DNA of 43,122 bases from Actinomycetota bacterium (GTDB lineage: Bacteria; Actinomycetota; Actinomycetes; Actinomycetales; Kineosporiaceae), in the NCBI GenBank assembly GCA_030837345.1, contig JAUPKQ010000079.1, forward strand, positions 1 through 43,122. Direction: 5' to 3'. This document shows positions 532-43,122 of this stretch, one piece after another. The first letter of the stretch is position 1. Each line of letters starts with the position of its first letter. The notes beneath the pieces were generated by a model. The model had not been told where the DNA came from and did not search any database. It saw nothing but the letters and a program-made list of their open reading frames with translations. Both the position numbers and the translations under genes were made by a program.

Positions 532-3500
532 TCAGCCCCGGATGGCGCGGCAGGTCGAGGGGCAGGTGCCCGCCGCCCACATCCAGGAAGCCAGGGACGG
601 GGTGCCCGCACGGGCCGGGGTCAGGGTGATGCCCGCCCCGGAGCCCGGGCCGGAGCCGGGATCGCCACCACCTGGGTCCCCGCCACCAGAGTCGCCGCCG
701 GGATCCCCAGCGCCGGGACCGTCACCGCTGCCCGGCTCGGACGGCGACTGCCCGCCGGGAACCGTCGCTGAGGGGGAAGGGCCCGGAGCACCAGGGTCAG
801 CACCCGGTGGGTTGCCATCACCTGGCGGGGTCTCGGTCCGGGTACTGCCCGGAGCCGAACCGGACGGGGACCCGGCTTGCGTGTCGACGTAGGTGAACGC
901 CGATTCCAGGCTCCCTCGTCGTCCGTCGGAACTCCAGACAGTGACGTCCACCGGCCCGGCGGACACGCCGGGAGGAGTCACGACGATCAGGAGGTCCCCG
1001 ACCTGCTGGACGGTCCGCGCGGCCACGCCACCGAACTGGACGGTCGCGCCGTTGGGGAGCCGGGTCCCCATGATGGTCACCGTCGTTCCTCCGGCCACGC
1101 CACCAGCGGCGGGCACGATCGAAGCGATGCCCCACACGCCTCCGATCGACCCGTCCCCGGGATTCGTTCCCGGGCCGGGAGCCGGGCCGGTAACCGGAGC
1201 CGGCGTCGGGCCGGGAACCGCTCCCGTCGAGGAGAGAGAGGGGCGCGTCGAGGAGAAGGAAGGGCGCGCGGTCCCGGATCCCGGGGCGGGGGCGGGTGGC
1301 GCCACGGTGGGACCTGGGCGAGTGGGCGCCACGCTCGTGGGGCCGGTGACGGGCCCGCCGGACGTGGGCGCGGCCCCTCCGCCAGGAGGCGGTGCGGTCG
1401 TGGCCGTGGAACCGCCCGCGGATGATCTGGTGGCGGGGGCTGTCGCCGGCGGACCCGGGGTCGCGCCGGTGTAGGTGAACGCCGCCCGGAGGACCTCGGA
1501 CCGCCAGTCCGGTGCCCACACGACGACGTCGACGGCGCCGGTGAAGGCCGACGGCGGGATCCGGACGACGATCCGGTCGGCGGTGTGCGGCAACGTGGTG
1601 GCGAACACCGCTCCGACCTGCACGAACGCGCCCTCGGGGAGCCGGGTTCCGGCGATCGTCAGTTCACCGTTCCCGCTGACGCTCGCCGAGGGAGGGGCCA
1701 GGTAGGTGATACCCCACAGGGGCGTGCCTCCGGGGTAGTCGAGCCGGGGGCTCGGCAGGGCTCCCGCCGGGGCACTCGTCGGCGCGCTCGTCGGCGCCGG
1801 GAGAGTGGGGGCGGCCGTCGGCGCGGGACCGGTCGGCGTCACCGCGGGAGGAATCGTCGGGGCGGCCGTCGGCACCGGGACCGTCGGCACCGGGACCGTC
1901 GGGGCGGCGGTCGCCGAGGGAGGCGACGCCGGAGGCTGAGGAGCCCCGCCTCCGCCCTCGTTGCCGGAGGACGGGGAGACGACCGGCGAGCCGCCGTCCG
2001 TCACGTCGAACACGCCGAACTGGGCCGCGGTGACCGGAAGCCCCTCGGACACCAGCCGGACGGCGACCCCGTACCGGCCCTGGGGCAGCGTGAAGCCGAG
2101 GGGAACGGTCACGCCCCCGCGCAACCTCGCCGCCGTCAGACCGGGAGGTGTGAGCACCACGGCCCCCGCGGCGTCCGTGGTGGCGGTCCCGGCATCGCCC
2201 GCGTCGATCGTCGCCCCGCCGACGGTGAACGTGGTGCCGCCGGAACGCGCCAGGAGGTCGAGGCGCACCTGGAGGGGACCGGTGGGCAGGTTCTCCCCGC
2301 TTCCGGCGAGCGTCGCGGAGGCCCGGACCGGCGTGGACGACGCGAGTCCCGACAAGCCCTCGAAGGTCACCCTGACGGGTTCGGGCATCGCGGCGACGGC
2401 GTTGCCCGCGTCGAGACGGCCGCCGGAGACCGATCGGCCCGCGAACGCCGCCTTCGGGATCGTTCCGTCGAGCAAGCGCTCGCGGAGGACGGCGACGGGC
2501 GAGGCCGGATTGACGCTCCGCATCATCGCCACGGTCGCCGCGACGATCGGTGACGAGAACGACGTCCCCGAGGCCGTGACGGTGTCGCCCCCGACGTCCG
2601 GGACCGGCAGGGAGGTCCCGGGGGCGAACAGGTCGACGGTCGCGTCGCCGTAGGCCGAGAACGACGACACGGAGTCGTCGGCCGCCGACGCCCCGACGAC
2701 AAGCATGTTCGGCTCGCGGAAGCTGGCCGGGTACATCGGGGCCGCCTCGCGATCGGCACCGTCGTTGCCCGCCGCGACGACGACGAGCACGTCGTGGTCG
2801 CCCGCGTACCGGATGGCGTCCCGCAACGTCAGGTCGTCGGGGGCCGGTGTGTTCCGCACCCCGCCGAAGGACAGGTTGATGACGTCGGCCCCGTGGTCCG
2901 TGGCGTAGCGGACGGCGCGCGCCGCCGCCGGGACGTGCACGGTGCGGTCGTATCCGGCGACCAGCGGCATGATCACCGCCTCGGGGGCCGCTCCACCGGC
3001 GCCGGTCCGGTTCCCGACCGCCGCGGCGGCCGATCCGGCCACCATCGTCCCGTGCCGGGATCCCTTGGTCCCGTTGATGGTGTTCGTGACGTCCGGGGAG
3101 TTCAGGTAGAAGTTCCACCCGTGGCAGTCACCGACAAGGCCGTCCCCGTCGAGATCGATCACCGAGCCGCACGGCTCGTCCGGGTTGGTCCAGATCCCGG
3201 AGGCGATCTCCGGGACGGCGAGGTCGGCACCGGTGTCGACCACGGCGATGACGCTTCCCGCCCCTCGGGTGCGCTCCCAGGCACGCAGGGCATTGATGTC
3301 CGCGCCCGCCCTGGCGGGCAGTGAGAGAGGGGTTCCGCTGCCGTCGTTGCGCAGGTTCCAGGCATAGGACAGGAACGGGTCGTCGGGAAGATCGGTCAGG
3401 TCGAGGGTCCGCGCCGTCGTCTGCCGTCGCACGTCCGTGACGAAGGAGGCGATCGACAGTCCCGTACCCGGCTCGGCGGCGACGAGGGCCTGGTCACCGC

Positions 3501-3846
3501 TGCCCTCGACGGCGAACCGCACGCCCTTCACCCGGCGGAGCGCCGACAGGGCGGCCGCGAGGCGGTCGCCCCGGGTGGCGGCCGTCGACGTGACGGCGAC
3601 CGTTGACGGGGCCGCGGGAGGCCTCGGGACGACGGACACCTCGACCCGGGAGAGGTCGAGATCGACGACCATCCGGTCCAGGCCGTCCCCCGGGTGGGCG
3701 AGTTCCCACGCGAGGATCGACTCGGGGTACGACGACCGGATCAGCAGCGCGTAGACCGGGACGGCGCCCGCCGCCGTGACGAGGGCGATGGTCACTCCCA
3801 GGGCCCATGCCTGGGTCATCGAGAGACGATCGAGGAACCGGCCCAT
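532..3846 (-). CDS. Subtilisin-like (S8) serine protease with two IPT/TIG domains and proline-rich linkers
   Basis: Predicted surface or secreted protease, 1104 residues. A hydrophobic segment near residues 14-36 looks like a signal peptide or anchor. The S8 triad is visible: Asp204 in VVDTGAD, His265 in SRHGTMVAG, Ser429 in SGTSFSSP, with the oxyanion Asn361 in AAGND. After the catalytic domain come a beta-rich region, a long Pro/Thr/Ala linker, an IPT/TIG domain (about 708-792), another low-complexity linker, a second IPT/TIG domain (about 898-985) and a Gly/Pro/Asp-rich tail. No LPxTG sorting signal is seen. The last 25 residues (with a CPSTC pair) look unrelated to the rest. ATG at 3846 is supported by AGAGGTG a few bases upstream. 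A sigma-28-like promoter lies at 3924-3898. Fold and catalytic class are secure; substrate is unknown, and flagellin processing or surface remodelling is only a guess. Confidence 0.9.
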   Translation of the reverse strand: MGRFLDRLSMTQAWALGVTIALVTAAGAVPVYALLIRSSYPESILAWELAHPGDGLDRMVVDLDLSRVEVSVVPRPPAAPSTVAVTSTAATRGDRLAAALSALRRVKGVRFAVEGSGDQALVAAEPGTGLSIASFVTDVRRQTTARTLDLTDLPDDPFLSYAWNLRNDGSGTPLSLPARAGADINALRAWERTRGAGSVIAVVDTGADLAVPEIASGIWTNPDEPCGSVIDLDGDGLVGDCHGWNFYLNSPDVTNTINGTKGSRHGTMVAGSAAAAVGNRTGAGGAAPEAVIMPLVAGYDRTVHVPAAARAVRYATDHGADVINLSFGGVRNTPAPDDLTLRDAIRYAGDHDVLVVVAAGNDGADREAAPMYPASFREPNMLVVGASAADDSVSSFSAYGDATVDLFAPGTSLPVPDVGGDTVTASGTSFSSPIVAATVAMMRSVNPASPVAVLRERLLDGTIPKAAFAGRSVSGGRLDAGNAVAAMPEPVRVTFEGLSGLASSTPVRASATLAGSGENLPTGPLQVRLDLLARSGGTTFTVGGATIDAGDAGTATTDAAGAVVLTPPGLTAARLRGGVTVPLGFTLPQGRYGVAVRLVSEGLPVTAAQFGVFDVTDGGSPVVSPSSGNEGGGGAPQPPASPPSATAAPTVPVPTVPVPTAAPTIPPAVTPTGPAPTAAPTLPAPTSAPTSAPAGALPSPRLDYPGGTPLWGITYLAPPSASVSGNGELTIAGTRLPEGAFVQVGAVFATTLPHTADRIVVRIPPSAFTGAVDVVVWAPDWRSEVLRAAFTYTGATPGPPATAPATRSSAGGSTATTAPPPGGGAAPTSGGPVTGPTSVAPTRPGPTVAPPAPAPGSGTARPSFSSTRPSLSSTGAVPGPTPAPVTGPAPGPGTNPGDGSIGGVWGIASIVPAAGGVAGGTTVTIMGTRLPNGATVQFGGVAARTVQQVGDLLIVVTPPGVSAGPVDVTVWSSDGRRGSLESAFTYVDTQAGSPSGSAPGSTRTETPPGDGNPPGADPGAPGPSPSATVPGGQSPSEPGSGDGPGAGDPGGDSGGGDPGGGDPGSGPGSGAGITLTPARAGTPSLASWMWAAGTCPSTCRAIRG

Positions 3847-3897
3847 TCACCTCTCCCTGACCCACGGGATCCCTGCACCCGTACAAGTGTCAAAGAG

Positions 3898-3924
3898 GTG
3901 TCGGCGGGGACCGGCATCCCCTGA
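3898..3924 (-). promoter_or_regulatory. Sigma-28-like promoter upstream of the S8 protease
   Basis: On the minus strand TCAG (3924-3921) is followed by exactly 15 bases and GCCGACAC (3905-3898). This matches the FliA-type pattern TNAA-N15-GCCGATAA at GCCGA and in spacing, but the last bases differ. Predicted transcription start is about 45 bases before the ATG. Weaker than the fliC promoter. Confidence 0.4.
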
Positions 3925-3959
3925 ACGGCCGGCCTGGCTGTCCACCCGGACTTTCCGCT

Positions 3960-3992
3960 CGAACCGGCGCGATCGTGCCGGTTCGAACCGGC
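3960..3992. promoter_or_regulatory. Three alternating GAACCGGC half-sites (nested palindromes)
   Basis: The half-site GAACCGGC occurs at 3961-3968, inverted at 3977-3984, and direct again at 3985-3992. The last two form a perfect 16-base palindrome (3977-3992); the first two form 9-bp arms (3960-3968 with 3977-3985) around an 8-base centre. It sits between two divergent surface-protein genes. A binding site for a dimeric regulator is the simplest reading; an RNA hairpin is the alternative. Confidence 0.5.
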
Positions 3993-4124
3993 GGGGTGAC
4001 AGACCGCCGAGGCCAGCGCGAGAAACCACTCCCCGGGGGGACTCGGACGGCGGAGGCCGCCGGACGGGGTGTGACCGCGGGGGGCGAACGCGCCCCCGAG
4101 CGAGTGGTCCGGGCCCCGAACCCA

Positions 4125-4151
4125 TCACGACGACGCCGGAGATGCCGATGA
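4125..4151 (+). promoter_or_regulatory. Weak sigma-28-like site before the IPT/TIG protein
   Basis: TCAC (4125-4128), 15 bases, then GCCGATGA (4144-4151). Spacing and the GCCGAT core fit the FliA pattern, but both ends deviate. It would start transcription about 75 bases before the gene. Listed because its mirror partner serves the divergent protease. Confidence 0.25.
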
Positions 4152-4233
4152 GTCCTGGCGAGGGGACATGACGACCCCAGCCCGTGGGGTCACACCGGCC
4201 TCACGACATCTCTCACGGAGGAGAACATCCGGA

Positions 4234-5268
4234 ATGAGTATTCTTACGAAGGTAGCGACGTCAAAGGTCGCACGAGTCACGGCCATCACCGCGCTGGTCG
4301 GCGGCACGATGATCGGTCTGACGACGAGTTCCGCGCAAGCCGCCACCGCTCTGACGCTCTCCCCCGCCACCTCTGACGCGGCCGGTGGCGCGGTGATCGC
4401 CGTCAAGGGCTCGGGCCTCGCCGATGCGACGAACGCCCCGAAGGTCCTCGCGGCGACCTTCTCGACAACGGTCTGCAATACGACGACGGTCTCCGGCACG
4501 GCGGCGGCGAGCTTCGCGGTCGAATCGGCGACGGTCGCCTACGTGACGACCCCGGTCCTCGCCGCCAACACGTGGTACCTGTGCCTCTATGACGTCGCCT
4601 CGGGCGCCGGCAACCTGCTCGGACAGGGCACGCTGGTCACCGCGGCCGCGCCGACGGTCACCTCGATCGCCCCGGTAGCCCCGGCAGCCCCCGTCAAGGG
4701 CGGCACGAGCATCACGCTGACCGGCACCAACTACACCAAGGCCACCAAGGTCCTGGTGGACGGCGTCGCCGCGAAGACGACGTACGTCAGTGCGACCTCC
4801 CTGCTCGCCGTCCTGCCCGCTCACGCGGCCCAGAAGGACGTTCCGGTCAAGGTGGTCTCGGAGTACGCCTCGGTCACGACGGCGGCCGACGCGAACTACG
4901 TCGACTACTTCCCGTCGATCACGGTCACGCCCGCCAGCGGTAACGGTGGCGCCAACCAGTGGATCACGGTCAAGGGCAGCGGTTTCAACGCCCTGACCTT
5001 CGGAGCCGCGGCGACCAACCAGGTCGTCACCCTGGTTCCCGGTGGAACGACGCTGACCGCCGCCACCACGGTGATTCTCACCGCGACCAAGCCGTGCGCC
5101 ACCCTGATCAGGGTCAGTGACACCCAGCTGAGCTGCCTGCTTCCGACACCCATCTCGGGCGCCTACTCGGTGATGATCATCGCTCGGGACGGCACGACCG
5201 CCGCCAACTACGGCAGCACGACCATCCCGATCATGAAGACGGGCACCTACACCGCGGCGAGCATGTGA
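4234..5268 (+). CDS. Secreted IPT/TIG-domain protein
   Basis: Predicted secreted protein of 344 residues. The N-terminus is a clear Sec signal peptide (positive SILTKVATSKVAR stretch, hydrophobic core, likely cut after AQA at residue 36). The mature part consists of about three Ig-like IPT/TIG repeats; the second (around 137-222) is the clearest, beginning VTSIAP and containing GGTSITLTGTNY. Cysteines occur in pairs in the first and third repeats. I chose ATG 4234 because GGAGGAG lies 10 bases upstream and the signal peptide begins there; an upstream in-frame ATG at 4168 adds an unlikely leader. It diverges from the S8 protease, which carries the same domain type, so the two may act on the same surface layer. 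Function unknown; an adhesin or surface-layer role is inference. Confidence 0.85.
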   Translation: MSILTKVATSKVARVTAITALVGGTMIGLTTSSAQAATALTLSPATSDAAGGAVIAVKGSGLADATNAPKVLAATFSTTVCNTTTVSGTAAASFAVESATVAYVTTPVLAANTWYLCLYDVASGAGNLLGQGTLVTAAAPTVTSIAPVAPAAPVKGGTSITLTGTNYTKATKVLVDGVAAKTTYVSATSLLAVLPAHAAQKDVPVKVVSEYASVTTAADANYVDYFPSITVTPASGNGGANQWITVKGSGFNALTFGAAATNQVVTLVPGGTTLTAATTVILTATKPCATLIRVSDTQLSCLLPTPISGAYSVMIIARDGTTAANYGSTTIPIMKTGTYTAASM

Positions 5269-13956: not shown

Positions 13957-14916
13957 GTGCCGCAACCCACCGCAGACGTCGACGAGTTGGTGAGCGCCAA
14001 TCTGGCCCTGGTGGGTCACCTTGCGCGCGAGACCGCGTCGCGCCTGCCGCGGCACCTCGACTCCGACGACCTCTACGGCGCGGGTGCGCTGGCCCTGGTC
14101 CAGGCAGCCAAGTCGTTCGACTCCTCCCTCGGCGTCCCCTTCGTGCGGTTCGCCTCCACCCGGGTCCGGGGAGCGATGATCGACCACATGCGCCAGCGCG
14201 ACTGGGCGACGCGCTCGATCCGCTCACGGGCCAGGGCGCTGACGACGGTGACGGAGGAGCTGACCCGGGCGATGCACCGGGCGCCGACGGAGAGCGAGGT
14301 CGCCGCCGCGAGCGGCATGACCGAGCAAGAGGTGCGCCAGGTGATCGCCGGGACCGACCGCGCGTCCCTGCTGAGCCTCGACCCGCTGACGGCGGACGAC
14401 GCCGGGCTCGGGGCCGGGCTCGTCGACGGCGCTCCCCGGCCTGACGAGGCCCTCGTCGCCGCGGAGCGGGTCGGCTATCTCAGGGACGCGATCGCCGAGC
14501 TGCCCGAGCGTCCCCGGCGGGTCGTCACCGGCTACTACCTGGAGAACCGGCAGCTCAGCGAGATCGCCGAGGAGCTCGGGGTGACGCAGTCACGCGTCTC
14601 CCAGCTCCGGGCGGAAGGCCTGGACCTCCTGCACGAGGCGCTCTCCCGCCTCCTTCGGGACGACTCCGCCGGCGGGTCCGCGAGCGCGTCCGCCGGCGGG
14701 TCCGCCGGTGGGGGGACGCCGGGCGGGGACCCTGCGCCGTCCCCCGAGAACGAGGGGATCAAGGCGCGCCGCCGGGAGGCGTACGTCAGCGCGGTGGCGA
14801 GGCGCTCCTCGGTACGGGAGCGGGCCGACGTCCAGGCCTATCTGGCCGGCGCCTCGCTGCACCTCACCCACGGCGAGGGATCCGAGGCCGCGCGCCGGGC
14901 CCCGACGGGCGCCTGA
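13957..14916 (+). CDS. fliA: Flagellar sigma factor FliA (sigma-28 / WhiG family)
   Basis: RNA polymerase sigma factor for late flagellar genes, 319 residues. Region 2 includes HLDSDDLYGAGALALVQAA and FVRFASTRVRGAMIDHMR (about 33-80), followed by DWATRSIRSRAR typical of the FliA/WhiG group. Region 3 spans about 95-135, and region 4 has the helix-turn-helix LSEIAEELGVTQSRVSQLRAEG (200-221). FliA is usually about 240-260 residues; here a Gly/Ala/Ser-rich linker from 237 leads to an extra C-terminal segment with KARRREAYVSAVARRSSVRER. The GTG start at 13957 has no good ribosome binding site, so the start may be leaderless or lie slightly downstream. It diverges from flgN. No FlgM-like anti-sigma gene is found in the window. 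Confidence 0.94.
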   Translation: MPQPTADVDELVSANLALVGHLARETASRLPRHLDSDDLYGAGALALVQAAKSFDSSLGVPFVRFASTRVRGAMIDHMRQRDWATRSIRSRARALTTVTEELTRAMHRAPTESEVAAASGMTEQEVRQVIAGTDRASLLSLDPLTADDAGLGAGLVDGAPRPDEALVAAERVGYLRDAIAELPERPRRVVTGYYLENRQLSEIAEELGVTQSRVSQLRAEGLDLLHEALSRLLRDDSAGGSASASAGGSAGGGTPGGDPAPSPENEGIKARRREAYVSAVARRSSVRERADVQAYLAGASLHLTHGEGSEAARRAPTGA

Positions 14917-27580: not shown

Positions 27581-28014
27581 GCCGCCGGTTCCGGCTCGCG
27601 GCCGTCGAGCGGATGCGGTCGGGCGCCCTGGCCGAGGCTGCCGGGGCCCTCGCCGCGGCCCGCCGGGAGCTGATCGAGGCGATCACGCGCCGTGACCGGA
27701 TCCGGAAGGAACTCGCCGTCACCGTCGCGGCGAGGAAGGGACCCCCCGTCGAGTACCAGGCCGCCGCCGCCCGCCGGCAGCGCCTGCGCGACGACCTGAC
27801 CGGTGCCGCCGAACGCTGCGTCGCCGCGTACGAGCAGGAACTGGCGACACTCGCCGCGTGGAACGCGGCGCGGGCCGAACTGCGCGCCGTCGAGGTCCTC
27901 CACGAGAGGCACCGGGCGGCGCTCGCGGAGGCCGACGCCCGGGCCGAGCAACGGGAGATCGACGAGTTCGCGGCCCTCACCCACCGCCGCCGATCCGAGG
28001 GTGATTCCCGATGA
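27577..28014 (+). CDS. fliJ: Flagellar export protein FliJ
   Basis: Predicted coiled-coil protein of 145 residues, the size of FliJ, which acts as the stalk-like subunit of the FliI ATPase and chaperone recycler. Sequence is nearly all helix with heptads (for example RRELIEAITRRDRIRKELAV and EVLHERHRAALAEADARAEQ). Low sequence conservation is normal in this family. The position between fliI and fliK-type genes, with GTGA overlap, is the strongest support. Confidence 0.88.
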   Translation: MSRRFRLAAVERMRSGALAEAAGALAAARRELIEAITRRDRIRKELAVTVAARKGPPVEYQAAAARRQRLRDDLTGAAERCVAAYEQELATLAAWNAARAELRAVEVLHERHRAALAEADARAEQREIDEFAALTHRRRSEGDSR

Positions 28015-29048
28015 GCACGTCGATGAACGAGATGAACGCGCGGATCGCGCAGCTCCAGTCGCTGCTCGGCGTCCGCACGGTCTCGTCCCCCAGCGGCGTG
28101 GCCACGGGGACCCGGACGTCGTCCACCGACTTCGCCCAGGTCCTGAGCGAGGCGATGGGGACGGCGGACACCGAGCCGAAGCCGGACACCCCCGCGGTCG
28201 GCCCGAAGGCCGTGGAGATCGCACGCGGTTACTCGGGAGTGCCCTACCTCTGGGGTGGCGAGAACCCGTCCAAGGGTCTGGACTGCTCGGGGCTCGTCCA
28301 GGTCGTGTACGGCAAACTCGGGATCAAACTCCCCCGGGTCGCGGCCGACCAGGCCCGCGCGGGGGTGAAGGTACCGTCACTCGCCCAGGCCCAGCCCGGT
28401 GACCTGCTCTTCTTCGGCTCCCCCGCCCACCACGTCGGCATCTTCGTCGGTGACGGAAAGATGATCGACGCTCCCCGCCGGGGCAAGACCGTCGGCGTCC
28501 ACTCCCTCTCCGGCTACGGCAAGATCTCCTCGATCCGGCGGGTGAGCGGCGACGCGGCGAACGGCACGATCTCCACCGGTCGCACGAACGTCCTCAACCT
28601 CGCGGCGGCAGAGCTGCTGTCGGCGTCCGGGCTGTCGGCGACGGCGGGTTCCGCCACCTCGGCGCTGACGGGACCGTACGCGGGGCTCTTCACCAGCGCC
28701 GGCCGCAAGCACGGCGTCGATCCGTCCTTGCTGTCCGCCATCGCGAAGACCGAGAGCAGCTACAAACCGTCCGCCGTCAGCTCGGCCGGAGCCCGAGGGC
28801 TCATGCAGTTGATGCCGGGCACCGCGCGCTCCCTCGGCGTCGACCCCGACGATCCGACGCAGGCCGTCGACGGGGCCGCACGCCTGATGAAGAACCTGCT
28901 CGCCCAGTTCGGCGGAAACATCGATCTCGCCCTCGCCGGTTACAACGCCGGGCCGGGGGCCGTCCGGCGGTACGGCGGCGTCCCGCCCTACCCGGAGACC
29001 CAGACCTATGTCCGCCGAGTGAACCGCGCCTGGGAGGCCCTCCGATGA
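28011..29048 (+). CDS. Two-domain peptidoglycan hydrolase: NlpC/P60 + SLT lytic transglycosylase
   Basis: Predicted wall-cutting enzyme of 345 residues encoded inside the basal-body operon, ATGA-coupled on both sides. Residues 63-180 are an NlpC/P60 endopeptidase: YLWGG, catalytic Cys92 in LDCSGLVQVVYG, and His141 in HHVGIFVGDGKMID. Residues 223-345 are a soluble lytic transglycosylase domain: catalytic Glu248 in IAKTESSY, GARGLMQLMPGTA, and LALAGYNAGPGAV. The N-terminus (STSMNEMNARIAQLQSLLG; STDFAQVLSEAMG) has no Sec signal and resembles type III substrates, so it may be exported through the growing rod, taking the role of FlgJ in opening the wall. Enzyme classes are secure; export route is inference. 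Confidence 0.92.
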   Translation: MSTSMNEMNARIAQLQSLLGVRTVSSPSGVATGTRTSSTDFAQVLSEAMGTADTEPKPDTPAVGPKAVEIARGYSGVPYLWGGENPSKGLDCSGLVQVVYGKLGIKLPRVAADQARAGVKVPSLAQAQPGDLLFFGSPAHHVGIFVGDGKMIDAPRRGKTVGVHSLSGYGKISSIRRVSGDAANGTISTGRTNVLNLAAAELLSASGLSATAGSATSALTGPYAGLFTSAGRKHGVDPSLLSAIAKTESSYKPSAVSSAGARGLMQLMPGTARSLGVDPDDPTQAVDGAARLMKNLLAQFGGNIDLALAGYNAGPGAVRRYGGVPPYPETQTYVRRVNRAWEALR

Positions 29049-37765: not shown

Positions 37766-38383
37766 ATGAGCGCGGACGTCACGCTCCTCGTCCGGGTCAC
37801 GGCGTCACTTCTCGCCGTGGTGCTCCTGGCGTTCGTCGCCGCCGCGCTGGTGCGCCGGAGCGGCGGACAGCGGGGACGCGGAGATCTCCAGGTCCTCGAC
37901 CGCGTGGGGCTCACCCGCGACTCGGCGGCCGTCATCATCCGGTCGGACGGGCGCCGCCTTCTCCTCGGCGTCGGTTCGGGACACGTCACCCTTCTCGCCG
38001 ACCTCGGCCCCGACACCCCGGCTGCCCCGGCCCAGGCCCCGGCCCCGGCCCCGGACTCCATCGCCACCCCGGCCGCCCCGGACACCCGTCCTCTCCCGAT
38101 CGTCCCGGCCGCCCGGGACACCGCTGCCGCCCGGGACACCGCTGACGCCCCGGCGACCCCGGATGCCCCGGATGCCCCGGATGCCCGGGTGGCGGCGGCC
38201 CTGACGTCCCTGCCGCGTCAGGGCACCGCGGCCCCCCTGTCCCGCAGGGCGATCCGCGAGCTGAACAGCAAGCGCCGGATCGCCACCCCGCCGACACAGC
38301 GCGGCACGGGGTCGGTCCTCGACCCCCGCACCTGGCACCAGGGCCTCGAAACCCTGCGCGACTTCACCGCGAGGCGGGGATGA
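37766..38383 (+). CDS. fliO: Flagellar biosynthesis protein FliO
   Basis: Single-pass membrane assembly factor for FliP, 205 residues. One helix (LLVRVTASLLAVVLLAFVAAALV, 7-29), then the FliO domain with LQVLDRVGLTRDSAAVIIRSDGRRLLLGV. A long Ala/Pro/Asp low-complexity segment (about 85-150, with DAPDAPDA repeats) precedes a basic tail. FliO is poorly conserved; the helix, the motif and the position before fliP support the call. ATGA overlap with fliP. Confidence 0.9.
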   Translation: MSADVTLLVRVTASLLAVVLLAFVAAALVRRSGGQRGRGDLQVLDRVGLTRDSAAVIIRSDGRRLLLGVGSGHVTLLADLGPDTPAAPAQAPAPAPDSIATPAAPDTRPLPIVPAARDTAAARDTADAPATPDAPDAPDARVAAALTSLPRQGTAAPLSRRAIRELNSKRRIATPPTQRGTGSVLDPRTWHQGLETLRDFTARRG

Positions 38384-39285
38384 GCGGGGCCGGGCGGCCG
38401 ATCAGAGCGGGACTGGTGGCGCTCGCCGCGTGCGTCGTCGTCCTGGGAGGAGCGCCGTCAGCCTCGGCGGATCCACCGGCCGGCGGGGAGACGTCTCCCA
38501 CCGCGACCGTTTCGGCGACCGTTGCCGCGGCCACCACGGCGGACGCCGCGGCGCCTGCGGTCCGGCTGGCGGCGACGCAGCCGGTCGGGCCGACCCGACC
38601 CGGCGCCCCCGCGCCGACGGGGACCGGCAGCCCGGCGATCACGGTCGACGTCCCGGGGGAGCCCAGCAAGGTGATCGGGCTCATCGTCCTGATCACGGTG
38701 CTCGGGGTGGCGCCGTCGCTTCTGCTGATGTGCACGGCGTTCACGAAGATCATCGTGGTTCTCTCCCTGACCCGCAGCGCCATCGGGACCCAGACCGTCC
38801 CGCCGAACCAGGTCCTCGTCGGACTGGCGCTGTTCCTGTCCCTCTTCATCATGGGTCCGACCGTCGACGCGATGCAGGCCAAGGGGATCACCCCCTACCT
38901 CGGCGGGACCAAGAATGCCCAGAGGGCCTACACGGACGCCTCTGTCCCTCTGCGCGAATTCATGCTCAACCATACTCGCGACGAAGACCTCGCCCTGATG
39001 ATCAAGGCCGCCGGACGACCCTTGCCCAAGGACCGTGAGGTGACCGACCTGCGCACTCTCATTCCCGCTTTCGTATTGAGTGAACTGCGGGGGGCATTCA
39101 TCATCGGCTTCGTCATCTTCGTGCCGTTTCTCGTGGTCGACCTCGTCGTCAGCGCCATTCTCATGTCGCTCGGCATGGTCATGCTTCCACCCTCCCTCAT
39201 TTCCCTCCCTTTCAAATTGCTCTTGTTCGTTCTGGTCGACGGCTGGTCCCTGATCGTGACCACGCTGCTCGGCGGATATCGCTGA
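38380..39285 (+). CDS. fliP: Flagellar export gate protein FliP
   Basis: Core of the export gate, 301 residues. A cleavable signal peptide (LVALAACVVVLGGAPSASA) and an Ala/Thr/Pro-rich linker precede four membrane helices: VIGLIVLITVLGVAPSLLLM, VLVGLALFLSLFIMG, and the C-terminal pair from ELRGAFIIGFVIFVPFLVVDLV to MVMLPPSLISLPFKLLLFVLVDGW. The motif FTKIIVVLSLTRSAIGTQTVPPNQ is diagnostic. The 3' part (about 38940-39260) has visibly more A/T in third codon positions than the surrounding genes. Confidence 0.96.
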   Translation: MSGAGRPIRAGLVALAACVVVLGGAPSASADPPAGGETSPTATVSATVAAATTADAAAPAVRLAATQPVGPTRPGAPAPTGTGSPAITVDVPGEPSKVIGLIVLITVLGVAPSLLLMCTAFTKIIVVLSLTRSAIGTQTVPPNQVLVGLALFLSLFIMGPTVDAMQAKGITPYLGGTKNAQRAYTDASVPLREFMLNHTRDEDLALMIKAAGRPLPKDREVTDLRTLIPAFVLSELRGAFIIGFVIFVPFLVVDLVVSAILMSLGMVMLPPSLISLPFKLLLFVLVDGWSLIVTTLLGGYR

Positions 39286-39294
39286 GGAGGCGAC

Positions 39295-39564
39295 GTGTCC
39301 GACAATGTCATACACATCGTCGCGGGAGCCCTGCTCACCGCGACCAAACTCTCGGGACCGATTCTCATCACCACGCTGGTCGTGGGCCTGGCGTTGTCCG
39401 TCATCCAGTCGGCGACCCAGATCCAGGAATCGACGCTGACGTTCGTCCCCAAGCTCGCGATCGCCGCCGTCGTCCTCGTCGTCACGGGAGCCTGGTGCCT
39501 GCGGGTGCTCGAGGGCTTCACGCGAGAGATCTTCGCGATGATCCCCGAAATGGTGGCGTCGTGA
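39295..39564 (+). CDS. fliQ: Flagellar export gate protein FliQ
   Basis: Two-helix membrane protein of 89 residues, the exact family size. Visible: the first helix region LTATKLSGPILITTLVVGLALSVIQSATQIQESTLTFVPKL (residues 13-53) and the second helix IAAVVLVVTGAWCLRVL. GTG 39295 is preceded by GAGGAGG. Its stop overlaps the start of the next gene, an unknown secreted protein, rather than leading straight into fliR. Confidence 0.95.
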   Translation: MSDNVIHIVAGALLTATKLSGPILITTLVVGLALSVIQSATQIQESTLTFVPKLAIAAVVLVVTGAWCLRVLEGFTREIFAMIPEMVAS

Positions 39565-40580
39565 GGGCGGCGGCGTCCGGGGTCGTGGGGGCGGCCCTGG
39601 CTCTTCTCGCCCAGCTGGCCCTGGTCCCGGCGGCCGCGGGAACCACCGGGATCGCCGCGGCCAGCGGAGCCACGGCGTTCCCGGGCGGACGCAAGACCTT
39701 CGTCGTCTCGGTGATGGACGGCAAACCGCAAGCCCTCTCCGTGAGGCTCGCGACCTACGAGTTCAAGGCCGACGGAACGGTGACCGAGCGGTACTGGGCC
39801 TGGCAACAGAACGCCATCTCCGGCAAGGGCAACGCCCGCTGGACCAAGCCCGCCAGCGGCTACCGGACCACGGGATGCCAGTACACCTGCCCGATCCGCA
39901 CCCCCGCCGGGTTCCAGAAGGGACGCTCTCCGCACGTCTTCACCGGCCGGTGGTCGATGGAGCAGGGATCGGTGCTCGCGATCCGCTGGACCCCGGCCTA
40001 CCCGGTGGAGCGCTGGAAGGTCGACACGAGCCGTGACGAGATCGCCGGGCTCCGTCTCCTCTCGGCGCGGGACGGCGGCCACGGCTGGGGAGCGGGGTCG
40101 AACGCCCCGGCGAACCGCGGCGTCAGCCTGGCCCAGGTCTACAAATCCGACTGGATCACCGGGCCCTTCGTGTCGAACGTCTACAGCCCCAAGAGCTCGG
40201 TCGCCTGGGTCGGTCTCAGCGCCCGGGACTACCGCCTCTGCAACACCGGGACCTGCCTGCAGGGCACCAAGATGGGCGGAAGCAACCGCAGCACCTGGTA
40301 CCACTCCTACCTCGCGGCGAACCCGGCCGTCGACGGACGCAAGGTCTACTGGAACAACCAGACCGGCGTCGTCCAGCAGTTGGAGAACCCGAACACCACC
40401 TGCATCAGCGCCTCCGGGGGCGGGCACACCAACGCTCTGCTCCAGGTCCTGGACGACAACGGGAGGTTCGCCGGATTCGTCGGCGTCGAGGCGAGCCTCA
40501 ACCAGCGCGTGTACGGACAGGCCGTCGTCGCGGCCTTCGCCATGGTGACGCCGTCCCTGCTGCCGGCCATCGAGAGCTGA
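39561..40580 (+). CDS. Unknown secreted protein embedded between fliQ and fliR
   Basis: Predicted secreted protein of 339 residues that I do not recognise. The N-terminus is a Sec signal peptide (RAAASGVVGAALALLAQLALVPAAA), with cleavage near residue 27-30. The mature protein is rich in Trp, Tyr, Asn and Gly, with no further membrane helix and five cysteines: a pair in TTGCQYTCP, a pair in LCNTGTCLQ and one in NTTCIS. Segments such as TERYWAWQQN, WSMEQGSVLAIRW and GRKVYWNNQTGV suggest an all-beta, possibly carbohydrate-binding fold, but no domain can be named. GTG 39561 overlaps the fliQ stop (GTGA), so it is translated with the export gate. fliQ and fliR are normally adjacent. Confidence 0.88.
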   Translation: MRAAASGVVGAALALLAQLALVPAAAGTTGIAAASGATAFPGGRKTFVVSVMDGKPQALSVRLATYEFKADGTVTERYWAWQQNAISGKGNARWTKPASGYRTTGCQYTCPIRTPAGFQKGRSPHVFTGRWSMEQGSVLAIRWTPAYPVERWKVDTSRDEIAGLRLLSARDGGHGWGAGSNAPANRGVSLAQVYKSDWITGPFVSNVYSPKSSVAWVGLSARDYRLCNTGTCLQGTKMGGSNRSTWYHSYLAANPAVDGRKVYWNNQTGVVQQLENPNTTCISASGGGHTNALLQVLDDNGRFAGFVGVEASLNQRVYGQAVVAAFAMVTPSLLPAIES

Positions 40581-40606
40581 TGATCGACCTCTGACAGGAG
40601 ACCCCC

Positions 40607-41377
40607 TTGACCGGCTTGCAGGTCGCCGTCGGCGAATCGGCGCTGGCGGCGTTCCTGCTCGCCATGGCCCGCGTGGCCGGGTTCATCCTCGTCGCCCCGC
40701 CCTTCAACACCCGGACCGTCCCGGGGAAGGTCAAGGTCGCTCTGGCGGCCGGGCTGGCCCTGCCCCTCTCCGTCGCGTACAGCGACCCCCCGTCCCTCGG
40801 GTCGGCCGCGATGCTGCTCAACGCCCTGCTCCAGGTCCTGACCGGGATGGCCCTCGGGTTCCTCGTGCTCGCCGCCGTCTCGACGATCCAGTCCGCCGGT
40901 GACCTGCTGGACACCGTCGGCGGGTTCAGCATCACGATGGCGATGGACCCGCTGATGATGATGCAGACGTCGGTCCTCGGCCGGCTCCACCAGATGACCG
41001 CGGCGGTGCTGCTCTTCGTCACCGACGGGCACCTCCTGATCCTGCGCGGCCTGACCCGCGGCGTGGAGACGATGCCCGGTCCGCTGGCCTCCTGGGCGGA
41101 CGCCGCCCGCGCCGCGATCGCCGCGCTCTCGTCCCTGTTCGCCGGGGCCTTGCAGATCGCGGCACCGGTCGTCGCGGCGATGCTCGTCGCGGACGTCGCG
41201 CTCGGCCTGCTCACCCGCGCCGCACCGGCCCTCAACGCCTTCGCGATGGGCTACCCGCTGAAGATCCTCTTCACTCTCCTCCTCGCGGTCCTGGTGGTCT
41301 CCCGGCTTCCGGGCGCGCTGGAGATCCTCGTGTCCGGCGCCGTCGGCGAGGTCCTCCGCCTGACCCGCGGGGGGTGA
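40607..41377 (+). CDS. fliR: Flagellar export gate protein FliR
   Basis: Polytopic membrane protein of 256 residues, normal size. Features: LAAFLLAMARVAGFILVAPPFNTRTVPGKVKVALAAGLALPLS, then the GFLVLAAVSTIQSAGDLLDTVGG segment, and the C-terminal RAAPALNAFAMGYPLKILFTLLLAVLV. The TTG start at 40607 is supported by AGGAG about 6 bases upstream and by the family start; rare but plausible. Gap of 26 bases to the unknown secreted gene, 3 bases to flhB. Confidence 0.95.
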   Translation: MTGLQVAVGESALAAFLLAMARVAGFILVAPPFNTRTVPGKVKVALAAGLALPLSVAYSDPPSLGSAAMLLNALLQVLTGMALGFLVLAAVSTIQSAGDLLDTVGGFSITMAMDPLMMMQTSVLGRLHQMTAAVLLFVTDGHLLILRGLTRGVETMPGPLASWADAARAAIAALSSLFAGALQIAAPVVAAMLVADVALGLLTRAAPALNAFAMGYPLKILFTLLLAVLVVSRLPGALEILVSGAVGEVLRLTRGG

Positions 41378-41380
41378 GAC

Positions 41381-42550
41381 ATGGCCGACAACGACGGCAA
41401 GACCGAGGATCCGACCCCGAAGAAACTGCGGGAGGCCCACAAGGAAGGGCAGGTCCCGCGCACCCCCGACCTCGCCACCTGGTTCGCGATCGCCGCCGCG
41501 GCCGCCACCTTGCCGATGAGCTGCTCTCTCCTCTCAGAGTCCTTCACCCGGCTGCTTCGTGGCCGGCTCGCCGAGATCGTCGCCGACCCCACGCCCGTCC
41601 AGGCGCTCGGGGTGCTGACGGAACTGCCGCGCGCCGTCCTCGTACCCCTCGCCCCGGTGGGGCTGGCCGCCATGGCCGGAGCTCTGATCGGCACCGCCGG
41701 TCAGGGGGTCTACCTCACCGGCAAGACCCTCAAACCGAAGATGAGCAGAATGAGCCCCAAACAGGGCTTCCAGCGCATGTTCGGCAAACGGGCGCTCTGG
41801 GAGGCCGTCAAGGCCCTGATCAAGGTGATCACGATCGGGATCGTCGTCTACGTACTGTCCCGTTCGATGATTCCCTCCCTCGTCGGCGCCGGGCTCATGC
41901 CGATCTCCACAGTGCTGAACCACACCTGGGACGGCATCGAGACGCTGCTCTGGGCGACGGCGCTGACCGGGGTCGTCCTCGCCGGGGCCGACTACGCCTT
42001 CCAGCGCCGCACGGTGATGAAGCAACTGCGGATGACGCCGCGCGAGATCAAGGACGAGATGCGCCAGACCGAGGGCGATCCGTTGATCAAGAGCGCGATC
42101 CGGGCCCGGCAGATGGCGATGAGCCGCAACCGGATGCTCCAGTCGGTCTCGACGGCCGACGTCGTCGTCGTCAACCCGACCCACCTCGCCGTCGCCCTGA
42201 AGTACGAACGCGGACGAGGAGCCCCTCGTGTCGTCGCCAAGGGGAGCGGGTCGCTCGCGGCGAAGATCCGGGAACGGGCGCGGGAGCACCGGGTCCCGGT
42301 CGTCGAGGACCGGTCTCTCGCCCGGACGCTGTACCGGGTCTGCGACCTGGACGACGAGATCCCGGCCGAGCTGTACCTCGCGGTCGCCCGTGTCCTCGCC
42401 TTCATCATGGCGGCGGGCCGCCCCTCCGCGACCGCCGGAGCCCGCAGACCCATGAGCAGCACGCCGGTGCCGGATCTGCCCAAGAAGTCCGTACTGCGCG
42501 CCCGTCGGGCCCAGGAGGAGCGTAAATCCCGACGCGCTTCCCACAAGTGA
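41381..42550 (+). CDS. flhB: Flagellar export switch protein FlhB
   Basis: Export-gate membrane protein of 389 residues that switches substrate class after hook completion. N-terminus KTEDPTPKKLREAHKEGQVPRTPDL is classic, followed by four membrane helices up to about residue 215. The cytoplasmic domain holds the autocleavage site Asn265-Pro-Thr-His (VVNPTHLAVALKYERG). The C-terminal 35 residues are a basic extension (KKSVLRARRAQEERKSRR). FlhA normally follows but is absent here. Confidence 0.96.
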   Translation: MADNDGKTEDPTPKKLREAHKEGQVPRTPDLATWFAIAAAAATLPMSCSLLSESFTRLLRGRLAEIVADPTPVQALGVLTELPRAVLVPLAPVGLAAMAGALIGTAGQGVYLTGKTLKPKMSRMSPKQGFQRMFGKRALWEAVKALIKVITIGIVVYVLSRSMIPSLVGAGLMPISTVLNHTWDGIETLLWATALTGVVLAGADYAFQRRTVMKQLRMTPREIKDEMRQTEGDPLIKSAIRARQMAMSRNRMLQSVSTADVVVVNPTHLAVALKYERGRGAPRVVAKGSGSLAAKIRERAREHRVPVVEDRSLARTLYRVCDLDDEIPAELYLAVARVLAFIMAAGRPSATAGARRPMSSTPVPDLPKKSVLRARRAQEERKSRRASHK

Positions 42551-42578: not shown

Positions 42579-43122
42579 ATGTCGGGGGAGACAGGGCTCG
42601 GTGACGACGCCGGTCCGCGCAAGGGACGGCGTCGGTGGCTGCGCCGTTTGGTCGTCGGCACCCTCTGCCTGGGGGCCGTCGCTCTCGCCCCGGCTGGTTT
42701 CGTGCGGGTCAGCACCGCGGGGGCGATCCACCACGACGTCGCGGACGTCGACGGCACCCCGGTCGCCATCGTGCTCGGGGCCGGTGTCGACGCGGCGGGA
42801 CGACCGAGCCCCTTCCTGGCGCAGCGCGTCGAGGTCGGTGCGGATCTCTACCGGGCGGGGCGGGTCAAGGCCTTGCTGATGAGCGGCGACAACTCCCGCA
42901 AGAACTACGACGAGGTCGGCGCCATGGCGGCGGAGGCGCTCCGCCTCGGCGTCCCGAGCAGTGCGATCGTGACCGACCACGCCGGATTCGACACCTATTC
43001 GTCCTGTTACCGGGCACGATCCGTCTGGGGAATCTCGCGGGCCGTCGTCGTGAGCCAGCCGTTCCACCTGCCCCGCGCCGTCTGGATCTGCCGCGAACTC
43101 GGGATCGACGCCCAGGGGGCCG
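42579..43122 (+). CDS. DUF218 / SanA-YdcF family membrane protein (partial, cut by window end)
   Basis: The first 181 residues of a protein that continues beyond the window. A basic cytoplasmic start (KGRRRWLRRL) leads into a membrane helix (VVGTLCLGAVALAPAGFV). An extracytoplasmic DUF218 domain follows, with VAIVLGAGVDAAGRPSPFLAQRV, LLMSGDNSRKNYDEVGAM, DHAGFDTYSSCYRA and VVVSQPFHLPRAVWI, all typical of SanA/YdcF proteins, which are linked to envelope integrity. It follows flhB by 28 bases but probably has its own leaderless promoter and no flagellar role. Confidence 0.88.
   Translation, partial: MSGETGLGDDAGPRKGRRRWLRRLVVGTLCLGAVALAPAGFVRVSTAGAIHHDVADVDGTPVAIVLGAGVDAAGRPSPFLAQRVEVGADLYRAGRVKALLMSGDNSRKNYDEVGAMAAEALRLGVPSSAIVTDHAGFDTYSSCYRARSVWGISRAVVVSQPFHLPRAVWICRELGIDAQGA

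Follow-up and report, generated by a model that had tools for sequence, protein, structure and literature searches.

The FliP, FliQ and FliR proteins form the gate of the flagellar export apparatus, and FliO, a membrane protein, acts as an accessory factor in the assembly of this gate. In actinobacterial flagellar systems the order of genes has been described as relatively conserved (PMC10746217), and the passages of that survey consulted make no mention of an insert between fliQ and fliR. Here we describe an operon of this type in which the order is interrupted. It lies in a contig of a Kineosporiaceae genome (GenBank assembly GCA_030837345.1, contig JAUPKQ010000079.1), whose 43,122 nucleotides are henceforth called the window, and contains between fliQ and fliR a gene, here termed X, for a predicted secreted protein of 339 residues. 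The relevant features are:

37766-38383, fliO (Pfam)
38380-39285, + strand, fliP (PF00813, E 4.7e-76)
39295-39564, + strand, fliQ (PF01313, E 8.4e-24)
39561-39564, + strand, GTGA, in which the start of X lies on the stop of fliQ (sequence)
39561-40580, + strand, gene X, encoding a 339-aa predicted secreted protein (ORF list, homologues, codon conservation)
39561-39641, + strand, probable Sec signal peptide, approximately residues 1-27 (hydropathy; VPAAAG cleavage site by eye)
39693-40106, + strand, predicted N-terminal beta-barrel, residues 45-182, with C106 and C110 (AlphaFold2)
40116-40556, + strand, predicted C-terminal beta-barrel-like domain, residues 186-332, with C227, C232 and C281 (AlphaFold2)
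40596-40600, + strand, AGGAG, likely ribosome-binding site of fliR (sequence)
40607-41377, + strand, fliR, with a TTG start at 40607 (PF01311, E 4.2e-51)
41381-42550, + strand, flhB (PF01312, E 1.8e-110)

X shares with fliP, fliQ and fliR an operon of overlapping frames; unlike their products, to which it is not homologous, it is predicted to be an exported all-beta protein. With fliO it shares the status of a non-core gene of the operon, but fliO is present here as a separate gene, and neither Pfam nor NCBIfam revealed homology of X to any known flagellar protein. The end of X is 26 bases from fliR. No Shine-Dalgarno sequence was seen before the GTG of X, which is usual for a gene translationally coupled to the one preceding it, and we infer from the overlap that X is coupled to fliQ in this way. 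Between 37700 and the end of the window the + strand shows no terminator-like sites. The fliO-flhB genes together with X form the terminal part of a large flagellar cluster, which also holds flagellin, FliD, FliF, FliG, a FliI-type ATPase, FliK, FlgE, MotA, MotB and FliL. Several other genes of the window are worth recording in their own right. A DUF218 gene (42579-43121) comes after flhB, and flhA is encoded on a separate contig (C215). A fusion of NlpC/P60 and lytic transglycosylase (SLT) domains, located within the flagellar cluster before fliK (28011-29048), is a candidate wall-opening enzyme for passage of the rod. A gene for a sigma-70 family factor that has regions 2, 3 and 4 (13957-14916) directly precedes the flagellin gene, and upstream of the cluster lie genes (532-5268) for a 1104-aa subtilase with TIG domains and for a TIG-repeat protein.

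Given that long frames come cheaply at 70% G+C, as the 499-aa antisense ORF overlapping X illustrates, the length of X is by itself no proof of a gene. However, its frame is kept in homologues, which argues that the gene is real. The copy in another member of the family, Kineosporiaceae MAG-70 (JAEUJN010000122), is 53% identical at the amino-acid level over 330 residues, and the identities at the three codon positions (0.61/0.70/0.56) follow the same pattern as those of FliR (0.63/0.74/0.56). The third-position G+C of X is 0.93, as in the neighboring genes. The description of X in the initial annotation, namely a 339-residue protein with five cysteines and many aromatic residues whose gene overlaps fliQ by GTGA, is accurate: the cysteines are residues 106, 110, 227, 232 and 281, and 11 tryptophans, 12 tyrosines and 9 phenylalanines make up about 10% of the mature protein. 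Its proposal that X is secreted agrees with the features of the N-terminus, which carries a single charged residue, a segment of high hydropathy that peaks from residue 11 (Kyte-Doolittle mean 2.39 for the best 12 residues) and the cleavage-type motif VPAAAG. On the strength of this hydropathy, export via Sec is predicted; no lipobox is apparent by eye.

To place this arrangement among its relatives we surveyed the fliQ-fliR junction in 248 sampled genomes of the order Actinomycetales. FliQ was detected in 76 of these and FliR in the same 76, and the two genes are adjacent in 73, with their domain matches 69-137 bases apart, which bears out the premise that these gate genes are normally contiguous. 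All three exceptions belong to Kineosporiaceae: the window genome, with 1124 bases between the two domain matches; a genome (G004) with 6053 bases between them; and MAG-70, in which fliQ and fliR lie on different contigs. In the remaining ten genomes of the family fliQ adjoins fliR. The G004 junction holds a 6-kb insert on the opposite strand (L015 5538-11508, G004:C200), including a DUF6571-type ORF of 961 aa and two lipoprotein-like paralogues; it is unrelated to X, of which no trace was found in this interval. In MAG-70, X directly precedes fliR, from which it is separated by 14 bases, and flhB and then flhA follow; X and fliR share the same strand. Directly before X lies a gene for an acyltransferase-3/SGNH fusion protein resembling OafA (L004 17608-19818, C52), and fliQ is found at the end of another contig (C36). 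The contig with X ends, upstream of the acyltransferase gene, in a C-rich run, and the fliQ contig dissolves into a G run; joining the two would give the order fliQ-acyltransferase-X-fliR, which is likely. Accordingly, the overlap of fliQ and X is visible in only one of the two operons with X, that of the window genome.

While FliR is present in all 13 Kineosporiaceae genomes, X occurs in two of them, and it is absent from 394 of the 396 Actinomycetales genomes searched, both carriers being these Kineosporiaceae. Its position before fliR is no recent accident, because a second genus keeps it too. The two copies at this position are 53-55% identical, a divergence equal to that of the corresponding FliR proteins (53%). 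The window genome encodes in addition a paralogue of X (C127:2295-3506, 40% identical), which lies away from flagellar genes and adjoins a gene of the nitrate-reductase-delta type, that is, a chaperone gene. X, the MAG-70 copy and this paralogue form one clade (SH-aLRT 99 and 100). In a tree of FliP, FliQ, FliR and FlhB the window genome, MAG-70 and a third genome, G001, group weakly (bootstrap 83 for the window genome with G001, 60 for all three). G001 has a tight fliQ-fliR junction and lacks X anywhere in its genome; hence either one loss or two gains of X must be invoked. We favor descent in place with a loss, since X and FliR have diverged equally.

Beyond Kineosporiaceae, about 65 further actinobacterial loci encode proteins of the X family, at about 30% identity. 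A profile search of a collection of genome contigs recovered 63 X-family loci and further searches the others; a close-relative scan of genome contigs with X as the sole query gave no match, its patterns being too specific. The genera include Nonomuraea, Streptosporangium, Sphaerisporangium, Actinomadura, Phytoactinopolyspora, Streptomyces, Stackebrandtia, Allokutzneria, Amycolatopsis, Rugosimonospora and Phytohabitans, among others, and those outside Kineosporiaceae are mostly non-motile mycelial organisms. In the fetched flanks of the family loci checked, no fliO-flhB genes were found except beside the MAG-70 copy, and no widely conserved neighbor genes emerged among 32 loci. Confinement of homologues to unrelated contexts had been named beforehand as telling against a flagellar tie; the outcome is mixed, as nearly all homologues do lie in such contexts but the nearest one does not. 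An origin of X as phage or plasmid cargo was considered and rejected: there was no match to phage records, and the sole plasmid match was a chromosome-sized Nonomuraea record.

Each of the five cysteines of X is shared by 97-100% of the other family members, and together they conform to the family pattern C-x3/4-C ... C-x4/6-C ... C. A motif of the form QxxDDxGxFxGxVGxEAS, corresponding to residues 295-312 of X, is present family-wide, and the invariant residues include W143, E150, W152, R260, H289, D298 and E310. X retains 43 of the 74 strongly conserved columns of the family alignment (A4). The Kineosporiaceae clade, however, alters several positions that are otherwise fixed (e.g. W266 to N, W306 to F or L, P292 to A), and its ligand or partner may therefore differ. 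As initially noted, no domain is recognizable in X: it has no match in Pfam, NCBIfam or the sequences of PDB chains. Scans of all 39 aligned family members against Pfam and NCBIfam gave stray weak matches alone, among them Lipocalin_4 (PF13648; E 0.011) and DUF5640 (PF18692; E 0.011) in three members; the bacterial proteinase inhibitor 1jiw_I was likewise matched weakly by sequence (E 1.3). We found no literature on such a secreted calycin- or lipocalin-like actinobacterial family. By these profile comparisons the X family is unnamed and new to the curated libraries, with neither a Pfam nor an NCBIfam entry.

An AlphaFold2 model built from the 39 sequences, which replaced one built from 9 (pLDDT 67.8), has a pLDDT of 78.9 and a pTM of 0.80 and predicts an all-beta protein that divides into two halves, at residues of about 45-182 and 186-332, whose strands fit two up-and-down antiparallel barrels of the eight- to ten-stranded kind typical of calycins. 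The Foldseek/VIA matches are nearly all beta-barrels, and several are double-barrel proteins: DUF3598 (2o62), BFA1 (5yvf), the TbpB lobes and an engineered avidin (2c4i). For the N-terminal half designed barrels match best (Z up to 6.9), VIA aligning residues 37-182 at 2.3-2.7 A; for the whole protein the matches are of the DUF3598 and TbpB-lobe type, with Z about 6 and Foldseek TM-scores of about 0.2-0.3. Among the matches listed the best Z overall is 6.9, against a background of about 8; values under 8 are common without kinship, and all the structural matches of X fall under that level. As no match rises above the chance level, the calycin-like two-barrel fold of X is a reasoned guess from the model, helped by the weak sequence matches. 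Like DUF3598 and BFA1 (2o62: Z 6.4, 151 residues, 4.1 A), X is predicted to comprise two consecutive antiparallel barrels, but it differs from them in its 8-9% identity, the lack of any profile match, its predicted export and its conserved cysteines. The lobes of TbpB, HpuA and factor H binding protein, which are surface lipoproteins of Gram-negative bacteria, are exported beta-barrels, as X is predicted to be (Z near 6, with 170-180 residues aligned at about 5 A), but X has neither sequence similarity to them nor a lipobox visible by eye. Lipocalins resemble X in the predicted up-and-down barrel of its N-terminal half and in the weak matches of single family members, but have one barrel rather than two, and X itself matches no lipocalin Pfam profile. 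The cysteines may be paired.

The interpretation that we favor, if at slightly under an even chance, is that X is a Sec-exported lipocalin-like binding protein that was recruited into the operon for co-expression in the motile stage and is not a component of the gate. X would consist of two consecutive antiparallel calycin-type barrels, stabilized by cysteine pairs, and would bind, beyond the cytoplasmic membrane, a ligand that is small or hydrophobic. An ancestor of some Kineosporiaceae would have acquired an X-family gene at the fliQ-fliR junction, and the gene would have been retained because its translational coupling to fliQ synchronizes its production with the building of flagella; it would thus be an accessory lineage-specific protein useful in motile cells, outside the export gate. 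Vertical inheritance in place predicts that X should diverge as fast as FliR, so that their equal divergence counts for this proposal, as do the embedding in the operon, the place of the MAG-70 copy, the conserved cysteines and the barrel-type model and matches. Against it stand the background-level scores of those structural matches and the presence of the fliQ-X overlap in just one of the two operons. The gene, its embedding, its place before fliR in two genera and the mostly non-flagellar settings of its family are established, secretion and fold are predicted, and the cysteine pairing, the ligand binding and the advantage to motile cells are inferred. Next, and not far behind since this junction has also accepted other cargo, is the reading that X is a pure hitch-hiker at a site that tolerates insertions, has no motility-linked function and could just as well be lost. 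Taken singly this is a possible though rather unlikely account: the unrelated antisense 6-kb insert of G004, the acyltransferase-SGNH gene adjoining X in MAG-70, and the tight junction of G001, which groups with the window genome (support 83) and lacks X, all speak for it, but across two genera with FliR proteins just 53% identical X stays directly before fliR and co-directional with the operon, whereas a useless gene would be expected to decay.

The initial annotation had suggested a role for X at the flagellar base, and what stands of this is the embedding in the gate operon and the retention of the place before fliR by another genus. It is weakened by the occurrence of X in no more than two of the family's 13 genomes and two of the order's 396, by the situation of the checked family loci away from fliO-flhB and by the non-flagellar paralogue of the window genome. 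That X is a true flagellar accessory part of this lineage, acting beyond the membrane either at the basal body or within the wall, accordingly seems unlikely: the overlap with fliQ, the linkage to fliR in two genera and the predicted secretion support it, but 11 of the 13 family genomes with FliR lack X, as do all the other Actinomycetales sampled, the X family is found mainly away from flagellar genes, and the paralogue adjoins a nitrate-reductase-delta-type gene. We hold in similarly low, if marginally higher, regard the version in which X is a recruited double-barrel protein made with the FliPQR gate and working in the wall round the Kineosporiaceae flagellar base. A general flagellar role is disfavored by the distribution, and on balance we doubt that X functions in the flagellum. 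The suggested carbohydrate- or wall-binding function finds no backing, as there is no sign of such a domain and X is instead predicted to fold into two lipocalin-like barrels. Least probable is that X is an extracellular two-domain calycin-type enzyme rather than a binding protein; the pericyclases CghA and Phm7, kievitone hydratase and a 25-phosphosteroid lyase do appear among the Foldseek matches, and the invariant R260, H289, D298 and E310 could form a site, but those matches are weak.

The arrangement is thus real, unusual and, as far as the searched libraries show, undescribed; X itself is probably no part of the gate but a lodger whose synthesis accompanies that of the flagellum. The fliQ-fliR order is kept in nearly every flagellated relative, and the Kineosporiaceae break it in more than one way, one such change being stable over genus-level divergence. 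The case also reveals that dozens of actinobacterial species share a family of secreted proteins with five cysteines that has so far had no name. Should X prove important for swimming, it would be a rare example of an extracytoplasmic protein whose production is built into that of the gate; if it is irrelevant to swimming, the junction would be shown to tolerate cargo.
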